Shown: positions 2,766 through 35,822 of the stretch, piece after piece | Position numbering within the stretch: position 1 is the stretch's first letter | How the letters are laid out: each line of letters begins with the position of its first letter | Origin: Balneola sp. | GTDB lineage: Bacteria; Bacteroidota; Rhodothermia; Balneolales; Balneolaceae | Direction of reading: 5' to 3' | Assembly: GCA_017640785.1 (NCBI GenBank) | Contig: JAEPPZ010000006.1 | Location: forward strand, 62,001-126,000 | DNA length: 64,000 bases | Translations under genes and position numbers: made by a program | Notes under the pieces: generated by a model | The model's input: the letters and a program-made list of their open reading frames with translations, nothing else | What the model was told of the DNA's origin: nothing | The model's database searches: none

Positions 2766-3665
2766 TTAGAAACCTAATTCTTTTGCCATTTCAAACATCT
2801 GAGCATGAGCAATTACTGTTTCTTCAAGTGTGGGTGCATAGCCACCGGAAAGTAATAAAACTAACGGGTATTCCTTTTGAGTGATCATCTCAATCACAAT
2901 ACGATCCCGCTCTCTCAGTCCTTTTAAAGTTAGGGACAATCTCCCAAAATGATCGGTTTCCAGCGGATCGATTCCTCCCAGATAAAAAACGATGTCTGGT
3001 TCAAATGAACTAAGTACCGAATCCAGTGATTCTATCAGATTTCTGTGATATTCTTTGTCTCCGGTTTTGTCGGGTAATCCAACGTCTAAGTTTGAAGGTG
3101 GTTTTTTGAACGGATAGTTCTTTTCTCCGTGGATGGAATACGTAAAAACGGTGTCGTCATCTTTGAATATTTCAGCTGTACCGTTTCCCTGATGTACATC
3201 GCAATCGATCACCAAGGCTTTGTTTATCCACATGGACTGCTGCAGTACTTTTATGGCAACAGCCACATCGTTAAATACGCAAAATCCTTCTCCCCAATCA
3301 GCCATAGCGTGATGGGTTCCTCCAGCTAAATTACCCGCAATTCCATCCTGAAGTGCCATTATTCCGGCGTTCAAAGTGCCCTGAACAGCAAGTCTGGATC
3401 GAATAGCCAGACTTTTTGTCCAAGGCAAACCCATTCTTCTCACTTCTTTTTTATCGAGCGTTCCGTTCCAGACACCGTAAGCATATCGTGATGTATGAGC
3501 CGTCATCAGATTTATGAAATCGATCATTTTGGGTTCAATGATCTCAAATTCAGAAAGGATTTCTTTTTCCAGTAAATAGCGATGCAATCCCTGAAATTTC
3601 CCCATCGGGAAAATATGCTCGTTAGGAATAGTAGCGTAATACTCGGGACTATAACTTACTCTCAA
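2766..3665 (-). CDS. Histone deacetylase-family (arginase-fold) amidohydrolase
   Basis: Member of the HDAC/AcuC/acetylpolyamine amidohydrolase superfamily. The active-site His pair is at 118-119 (THHA), the zinc ligands Asp156 and His158 sit in DCDVHQGNG, and the later GGIDPL segment supplies the third ligand. Length (299 aa) fits the bacterial class. The start is TTG and overlaps the pgeF stop by 4 nt (TTGA), indicating translational coupling. Substrate is unknown; lysine deacetylation or acetylpolyamine hydrolysis are both possible, and the window does encode spermidine synthesis. No signal peptide, so cytosolic. Confidence 0.88.
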   Translation of the reverse strand: MRVSYSPEYYATIPNEHIFPMGKFQGLHRYLLEKEILSEFEIIEPKMIDFINLMTAHTSRYAYGVWNGTLDKKEVRRMGLPWTKSLAIRSRLAVQGTLNAGIMALQDGIAGNLAGGTHHAMADWGEGFCVFNDVAVAIKVLQQSMWINKALVIDCDVHQGNGTAEIFKDDDTVFTYSIHGEKNYPFKKPPSNLDVGLPDKTGDKEYHRNLIESLDSVLSSFEPDIVFYLGGIDPLETDHFGRLSLTLKGLRERDRIVIEMITQKEYPLVLLLSGGYAPTLEETVIAHAQMFEMAKELGF

Positions 3666-34603: not shown

Positions 34604-34722
34604 AATTTGATTAATTAATATCCCTCCCAAGTTCCTGCTTGGGAGAACAAAAAGGAGCTCCTGCTCCAAATAAGTCAAATCGGAACCGGAAGATCACTTC
34701 GCTCCGCTCGTGAATGGTTCAA
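34604..34722. repeat. Intergenic hairpin cluster
   Basis: CTCCCAAG / CTTGGGAG at 34624-34645 (8-bp stem, loop TTCCTG) and GGAGC / GCTCC at 34654-34667 (loop TCCT). Read as arm-G(C/T)TCCTGC-arm they share a loop while the arms differ. Similar loops recur near 60.03 and 60.22 kb. Confidence 0.7.
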
Positions 34723-34744
34723 TGATACAAAACCTATTGTTTCC
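34723..34744. promoter_or_regulatory. Operator-like palindrome 1 upstream of satD
   Basis: TGATACAA, 6-bp spacer, TTGTTTCC. Same 8-6-8 architecture as two further sites closer to the gene; least perfect of the three. Confidence 0.5.
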
Positions 34745-34755
34745 CGTCTCTATCG

Positions 34756-34770
34756 CAAGCGTCCCGCTTG
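34756..34770. repeat. Short hairpin CAAGCG-TCC-CGCTTG
   Basis: Perfect 6-bp stem with loop TCC, between operator-like sites 1 and 2. The TCC loop is shared with hairpins at 60.01 and 60.77 kb whose arms are different. Confidence 0.7.
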
Positions 34771-34791
34771 TGTAGCATTACCACTATCAAC

Positions 34792-34813
34792 TGAAACAAA
34801 TCCTATTGTTTCA
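34792..34813. promoter_or_regulatory. Operator-like palindrome 2 upstream of satD
   Basis: TGAAACAA, 6-bp spacer, TTGTTTCA: a perfect 8-bp inverted repeat. Its spacer differs from that of site 1 in one base, and its centre is 29 bp from that of site 3. Confidence 0.6.
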
Positions 34814-34820
34814 TTTTTAA

Positions 34821-34842
34821 TGAAACATATTGCATTGTTTCA
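34821..34842. promoter_or_regulatory. Operator-like palindrome 3 upstream of satD
   Basis: TGAAACAT, 6-bp spacer, TTGTTTCA. The dyad extends as AATGAAACA / TGTTTCATT (9 bp). It overlaps the -35 and spacer of the candidate satD promoter. Confidence 0.6.
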
Positions 34843-34858
34843 TTTTTTTTGATACAAT
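34830..34858 (+). promoter_or_regulatory. Candidate satD promoter, possibly leaderless
   Basis: TTGCAT (34830-34835), 17 bp, TACAAT (34853-34858). The predicted start would fall at or next to the ATG at 34864, so the mRNA could be leaderless; no ribosome-binding site is seen. A half-site TGATACAA (34850-34857) overlaps the -10. Confidence 0.35.
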
Positions 34859-34863
34859 ACAAC

Positions 34864-35502
34864 ATGCCTAAAAAACAACATAGCTATCCCATATTTATGG
34901 GAGATGTAGTTAACAGCTCAGATTATGACGGAGAGGTGCTCAGCAAAGGACTGAAAGAGCTTGTTGAAAGTACTAACAAGAAGTTCAGCAAAGACATCCT
35001 CTCTCCTCTTACCATTACCTTGGGGGATGAATTTCAAGGTGTGCTGAACTCAGTATCAACAGGAATAGATCTGCTTTTTCATCTTGAAGAAGAATTACTT
35101 AAAGCAGAACCTGATTTTAAACTTCATTACGTGCTTCTACTGGGCGAGATCGAGACGGAAATAAATCCTGAAATAGCTTATGAAATGATGGGCAAAGGTT
35201 TAACAGAAGCGCGAAAAATGCTCTCATCCAAAAAAAGAAACCGTAAGCGTTTCCGGTTTAAACTTCAGAATAAAGAACAAACAGAGCAGCTTTCAAGGAT
35301 ATTTGAAGTATTGGATACGATCATCCTGAACTGGAAAAAGGAAGATTATCCTTTGATACTGGATATGATCAACAACGACAACAATAGTGAAGTAGGCGAA
35401 CTTCATGATAAAAACCGAGATCAAATCTGGAAAAGACGAAAAACTTTGATGATCAATGAGTATAATCTGCTAAAAGATTTCATCAAAATATACATCAAAT
35501 AA
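34864..35502 (+). CDS. SatD-family protein
   Basis: 212 aa. The N-terminal IFMGDVVNSSDYDGE (residues about 10-24) and LTITLGDEFQGVLNS motifs match the SatD family; the GDxxxS and GDEFQG residues recall nucleotidyl-cyclase-like ferredoxin folds, which is my inference. The C-terminal helical half has a basic stretch (KKRNRKRFRFK). The ATG at 34864 is preferred over a TTG five codons upstream. A small membrane protein follows after 2 bp. The operator-like array in front suggests tight, probably cooperative, control. Confidence 0.78.
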   Translation: MPKKQHSYPIFMGDVVNSSDYDGEVLSKGLKELVESTNKKFSKDILSPLTITLGDEFQGVLNSVSTGIDLLFHLEEELLKAEPDFKLHYVLLLGEIETEINPEIAYEMMGKGLTEARKMLSSKKRNRKRFRFKLQNKEQTEQLSRIFEVLDTIILNWKKEDYPLILDMINNDNNSEVGELHDKNRDQIWKRRKTLMINEYNLLKDFIKIYIK

Positions 35503-35504
35503 CT

Positions 35505-35822
35505 ATGATTGGAGATATGCTCGTTGGTTGGTTAGTGATGGAATTGTTCGCTAATATTTCAATCAACGTTATTCTGGGACATTCAAATACAAGCTGGAGT
35601 TCGTTTGGTAAAGGAGTGTTGGAAAGATTATTTCTGTCTGTAGGAATTTTAGCTGGCTACCCGCACGTGATCATCGCCTTTGGAGCACTAAAAATTGGCA
35701 CACGATTACACGAGGACAAAAGCTCCAAAATTTCTAACGATTATTTTCTAGTTGGTAATTTTATATCACTGTTAGCAGTTGTAATATACGTGTATACCTG
35801 CTTCAGTTATTTTGGATGGTGA
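35505..35822 (+). CDS. Small membrane protein paired with SatD
   Basis: 105 aa with about three hydrophobic segments (residues 5-25, 42-62, 80-102). It starts 2 bp after the satD stop, so the two are almost certainly co-translated. Many satD genes are followed by a DUF3307-type membrane protein; this one occupies that place but I cannot confirm family membership. Together they may form a cytosolic sensor and a membrane partner. Confidence 0.7.
   Translation: MIGDMLVGWLVMELFANISINVILGHSNTSWSSFGKGVLERLFLSVGILAGYPHVIIAFGALKIGTRLHEDKSSKISNDYFLVGNFISLLAVVIYVYTCFSYFGW

Follow-up and report, generated by a model that had tools for sequence, protein, structure and literature searches.

Phased palindrome arrays at satD genes point to SatD proteins as probable autoregulators of a two-gene operon

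Results

The satD locus of Balneola sp.

The window, by which we mean the whole 64,000-nucleotide stretch of Balneola sp. DNA that was analyzed, contains a satD gene that is preceded by a group of palindromes and followed by a small gene (Table 1). The SatD family (PF16264) takes its name from satD, a gene in the sat (secretion and acid tolerance) operon of Streptococcus mutans, and the window protein matches the family profile over residues 11-176 with 60.2 bits (cut-off 29). A sequence-only reading of the window had described three palindromes with an 8-6-8 geometry upstream of satD, and a pattern search returned exact matches at all three places (sites 1 to 3). Sites 2 and 3 are separated by 29 bp center to center, as claimed, and the half-site TGATACAA at 34850-34857 does overlap the candidate -10 element TACAAT (34853-34858). 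This half-site lies within a fourth, degenerate site, which matches at 13/16 positions in the window and at 14/16 in the relatives L021 and L030. The half-sites form an unbroken run with alternating orientation, with centers at 34795, 34810, 34824, 34839, and 34853 and thus center spacings of 15, 14, 15, and 14 bp. The description of the three sites as equal has to be given up, since site 1 is lineage-specific and displaced: it is 69 bp away from site 2, does not keep the register, and has an imperfect arm (TTTCC). Parts of the stretch around site 1 are repeated many times in the genome as dispersed repeats. Further upstream, at 34625-34672, there is a palindromic stretch (CTCCCAAGTTCCTGCTTGGGAG and its neighbor) that recurs in similar form at ∼11 further places in the genome; this dispersed repeat adjoins satD in several Balneola species.

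The characterization of the palindromes as operator-like elements at the satD promoter is borne out, with site 3 lying over the candidate -35 and site 4 over the candidate -10 and the ATG. The candidate promoter itself is a weak match to the consensus and falls under the threshold of the promoter scan. The satD ATG at 34864 is 6 nt past the candidate -10, so the satD mRNA is plausibly leaderless, as had been suggested. An in-frame TTG at 34849, 15 nt before the ATG and within the promoter region, is also found in five Balneola species and is an unlikely start.

Table 1 Features of the satD locus, in window coordinates
Feature	Position	Strand	Basis
Site 1, displaced imperfect out-of-register copy, TGATACAAAACCTATTGTTTCC	34723..34744		sequence, pattern search; 2/5 Balneola species
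Site 2, putative operator dyad that opens the phased array, TGAAACAAATCCTATTGTTTCA	34792..34813		sequence, genome scan, alignment
Site 3, putative operator dyad over candidate -35 (TTGCAT), TGAAACATATTGCATTGTTTCA	34821..34842		nearly invariant in five species
Site 4, degenerate in-register putative operator, TGATACAATACAACATGCCTAA, overlaps -10 and start codon	34850..34871		13/16 positions
Candidate promoter, TTGCAT-N17-TACAAT, TG before -10	34830..34858	+	inferred from sequence; conserved in relatives
satD (212 aa), class III cyclase-like/palm domain at the N terminus (∼1-133), helix-turn-helix at the C terminus (∼159-194)	34864..35502	+	PF16264, AlphaFold2, Foldseek, profiles
Codons of the predicted recognition helix NRDQIWKRRKT (residues 184-194)	35413..35445	+	model helix 185-194
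Partner gene, 2 bp downstream of satD; product of 105 aa with ∼3 hydrophobic segments	35505..35822	+	ORF, hydrophobicity

The motif in the genome and in close relatives

The genome (3.39 Mb, 18 contigs) was scanned with the 22-bp motif, a check proposed in the sequence-only reading, and the motif proved not to be scattered at random. Sites 2 and 3 are the only perfect copies of the palindrome TGAWACAW-N6-WTGTWTCA, and a tolerance of one mismatch brings in just site 1 and one unrelated place. Within the window, every exact match to the motif is one of the sites upstream of satD, and the 15 matches with up to three mismatches are an ordinary number (10.3 ± 3.4 in shuffles). With no exact palindromes in the rest of the genome, the regulon is predicted to comprise just the satD operon. 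A wider regulon is not claimed, as the count with up to one mismatch is just four as compared to three for the reversed pattern. At up to two mismatches there are 62 places genome-wide versus 22 for the reversed pattern (∼3-fold), an excess that could be due to composition or to weak extra sites.

SatD is present in 41/92 Balneolaceae genomes. Alignment of the satD upstream regions of close relatives, also proposed earlier, revealed that the motif is conserved: sites 2, 3, and 4 keep their sequence, their register, and their distance to the ATG in five Balneola species. Only two of the five have site 1, and there extra sequence parts it from the array. Pairs of sites at 29 bp with up to one mismatch each are located at satD in 10/12 genomes carrying the window type of SatD, and in 0/12 genomes that do not carry this type.

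SatD is encoded together with a predicted membrane protein

The expected small membrane partner of SatD is found directly downstream as a 105-aa predicted membrane protein, which has no significant match to a Pfam family. This arrangement extends beyond the window, since the gene directly downstream of satD encodes a predicted membrane protein at 84 of the 89 loci where the next gene could be read, and among these the two genes often overlap by 4 bp. The partners are of three unrelated-looking kinds, which are the ∼105-aa kind of the window, a ∼245-aa kind, and a DUF3307-like kind (the name DUF3307 is taken from a plasmid annotation). The examined loci have SatD in common, with partners from families that look unrelated. 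On a Sphingomonas insulae plasmid (L147), a gene annotated as a Pycsar system effector (3072-3561) adjoins the SatD-DUF3307 pair, and this neighbor possibly links the cyclase-like SatD to nucleotide signaling or defense.

SatD is predicted to join a cyclase-like domain to a helix-turn-helix

AlphaFold2 models were obtained with pLDDT values of 94.5 for the window SatD and 96.6 for a second SatD encoded in the same genome. In both models, an alpha/beta domain at the N terminus leads into a helical domain at the C terminus that contains a helix-turn-helix. The latter is also matched by profiles, with Sigma70_r4 just above the cut-off for L102. A Foldseek search with the N-terminal domain of the window SatD returned class III cyclases as top matches (Ma1120, E = 5e-5, prob 1.00; TM by target ∼0.5-0.6 for the cyclase matches), and the second SatD gave weaker matches to cyclases, GGDEF, and Cas10/Cmr2 palm domains, none of which was below 0.001. 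The predicted fold is shared with class III adenylyl/guanylyl cyclases (Ma1120, Rv1900c) and palm domains (GGDEF, Cas10/Cmr2).

Residues D14 and D55 are invariant in the SatD alignment and align with the metal aspartates of Ma1120 (TDI and GD), with a weak profile E-value of 0.015. In the same profile alignment, the substrate-specifying lysine that precedes the GD motif in Ma1120 is Ile in the window SatD, and the class III transition-state Asn/Arg pair is seemingly absent in a motif comparison made by eye, outside the alignments. Since the substrate lysine is replaced, we do not file SatD as a cyclase enzyme. The retention of the metal aspartates together with this replacement leads us to propose that the N-terminal domain, as modeled, probably senses a nucleotide or a metal. 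Two other readings were considered and set aside. As for a defense system, neither the window SatD nor its partner had a PADLOC match, and the paralogues had only weak matches in the helix-turn-helix region; as for a phage origin, a tblastn search with one query found no SatD in phage records.

Arrays with a 28/29-bp period are a property of the SatD family

We collected 98 distinct SatD (PF16264) loci from the host phylum and scored each upstream region for two palindromes that share one consensus at a spacing of 22 to 40 bp. The best phased spacing was 28 or 29 bp at 91/98 SatD loci, as compared to 13/98 dinucleotide-shuffled sequences and 11/80 control upstream regions from other genes of the SatD loci; the seven remaining SatD loci have a best period other than 28/29 bp. 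A score of at least 18/21 was reached by 74/98 SatD upstream regions versus 1/80 of the others, and after dereplication at 50% identity the 28/29-bp best period was still present at 35/40 loci. The arrays consist of two to several units, and in distant relatives the palindrome sequence changes while the layout is unchanged. The array noted at the window satD is thus real, but it is not peculiar to this gene; it is a SatD family property with a clade-specific sequence.

Ten plasmid-borne SatD genes served as a test outside the 98 loci. Arrays at 28-29 bp precede satD on plasmids of Alphaproteobacteria (Sphingomonas parapaucimobilis and Agrobacterium), Vibrio, Pseudoalteromonas, and Segatella, and a weak one is found on a Salinivibrio plasmid. 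Two near-identical haloarchaeal plasmid loci (L144/L145) carry a 28-29 bp array of the GTTCGCC type before a SatD-DUF3307 operon, which indicates that the arrangement crosses domains. A Klebsiella plasmid satD has a 28-29 bp array once its start codon is moved upstream, and one of the ten, the Sphingomonas insulae gene (L147), has none. The Klebsiella pneumoniae plasmid (L151, NZ_LR890364.1) is a 4.4-kb ColRNAI plasmid with only five annotated features that contains a SatD-DUF3307 pair; its satD seems to be annotated with a start too far downstream, and the 29-bp array precedes the upstream ATG.

The operator sequence follows the SatD lineage

Across the loci, operator similarity correlates with the similarity of the SatD N-terminal domain (r = 0.67), and the palindrome sequence tracks the SatD clade and not the host genome. 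Eight genomes that encode two SatD paralogues are informative in this respect. The operators of the two paralogues are 0.26-0.57 similar, like those of distant SatD pairs, and each operator finds its best match among the SatD of other genomes at 0.66-1.00, which a host-wide regulator cannot easily explain. One of these is the Balneola genome of the window, in which a second satD (L106 2570-3166, G000:C15:229781) is paired with a gene for a DUF3307-like membrane protein and has a different operator array, made of GCAGATA-type half-sites. The looser pattern of this paralogue, ATCTG-N8-CAGAT, has ten exact matches genome-wide and is therefore less exclusive.

Particular residues of the predicted recognition helix go with particular half-sites. 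The half-sites are TGAAACA/TGATACA for SatD proteins with (I/V)WKRR, including those of a different family within the phylum, TGCAACA/TGCATCA for those with IYRRR, and TGAAATA-like for those with WKRE/WKRF. Given N-domain similarity, the recognition helix retains a partial correlation of r = 0.18 with operator similarity (0/2000 permutations). The best predictors of operator similarity beyond overall identity, among 184 alignment columns, are K190 and Q187, both within the recognition helix. A stricter permutation gave P = 0.025 for the helix maximum and P = 0.37 for the maximum over all columns, so this link between helix columns and operator sequence is suggestive only. Taken as a block, the helix-turn-helix columns explain the operators no better than other columns (p = 0.41).

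Discussion

Our current hypothesis, which we regard as probable, is that SatD proteins are self-addressed transcriptional autoregulators that bind phased palindromes at the promoter of their own two-gene operon and probably repress it. That SatD itself could be the regulator had been raised in the sequence-only reading, and the match between operator and SatD lineage, the predicted helix-turn-helix, and the arrays at SatD's own gene support it. The C-terminal helix-turn-helix of SatD dimers would bind the dyads of the array, whose half-sites alternate every 14-15 bp in a 28-29 bp repeat and cover the promoter of SatD and the membrane protein. Because the array reaches over the candidate -35, the -10, and the start codon, an occupied run should block transcription of satD and its partner; repression is the most likely sign of the autoregulation, judged solely by this overlap with the candidate promoter. 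Repression would be lifted by a ligand of the cyclase-like domain or by the membrane partner, and a nucleotide or metal sensed by the N-terminal domain could set DNA binding. As the operator sequence is particular to each SatD lineage, paralogues within one cell should not cross-talk.

It is improbable that another host transcription factor binds the array, with SatD as a mere target. Many regulators do act in trans, but such a factor would have to switch with each SatD clade, in bacteria and archaea, while keeping the 28-29 bp pitch. The operator follows the SatD lineage, the eight genomes with two SatD have two different operators, the usual linked gene encodes a membrane protein, and the motif has no regulon past satD. 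We consider it very unlikely that the palindromes act as RNA or DNA structures such as terminators, hairpins, or mobile-element ends. Dispersed repeats do occur in the upstream stretch, site 1 among them, yet sites 2 and 3 have no copies elsewhere in the genome, the 28-29 bp pitch is conserved with variable spacer sequence and alternating dyads, the arms are clade-specific in many genomes, and a likely leaderless transcript would exclude the array. Chance or A+T-rich composition can be practically dismissed: the AT-rich genome does contain many low-stringency matches (62 when two mismatches are tolerated), but the exact sites are confined to satD and the period is missing from shuffled and neighboring upstream regions.

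The rival with the best prospects, although we still think it rather unlikely, is that SatD bound to the array activates transcription or forms a partition- or silencing-like nucleoprotein filament, and is not a simple repressor. The continuous half-sites alternating every 14-15 bp, the arrays of two to several units, and the presence of SatD on plasmids, including the 4.4-kb Klebsiella plasmid, are consistent with this proposal. However, most SatD loci are on large genome contigs, and the position of the arrays, immediately next to the start of satD and with one in-register site across both the candidate -10 and the ATG, fits autorepression. We infer that the two alternating kinds of dyad reflect two dimer contacts that would build a cooperative lattice. 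A bolder form of autoregulation, which we put forward only tentatively, is a nucleotide-controlled lattice in which alternating dimer contacts of the cyclase domain and of the HTH/C-helix polymerize along the 14-15 bp half-sites and the state of the nucleotide or partner breaks the lattice.

Phage CI is an autogenous helix-turn-helix repressor with several cooperative operators. SatD resembles such repressors in its phased palindromes over its own promoter and its lineage-specific operators. It differs in its effector domain, in its operon with a membrane protein, and in the uniform 28-29 bp alternating lattice seen throughout the family. Class III cyclases share the metal aspartates with SatD (D14 and D55) but not the Ma1120 substrate lysine, and, unlike them, SatD has its cyclase-like domain fused to a C-terminal helix-turn-helix and has putative operators at its own gene. 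Streptococcal SatD belongs to the same Pfam family, PF16264, as the window protein; there, SatD is described only as an acid-tolerance-associated protein (PMC10326533, PMC11323703), and satD of S. pyogenes is described as essential but accessory (PMC11323703). The arrays reported here were read outside streptococcal loci. In our literature search, with subscription papers and preprints outside its scope, no paper was found that connects SatD with either DNA binding or a cyclase fold.

These findings provide a testable function for a widespread uncharacterized family, PF16264, and its membrane partners, including the DUF3307 proteins. They would link a predicted cyclase/palm-type fold to direct DNA binding, and they offer a speculative lead on the essentiality of satD in the tested S. 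pyogenes strains, where loss of an autorepressor could deregulate neighboring genes. If the lattice reading is true, the family would represent general, orthogonal one-gene switches that drive membrane effectors in bacteria and archaea. The data set also pairs about sixty predicted DNA-binding helices with their operators, and both a recognition code and many orthogonal regulators could come out of it.
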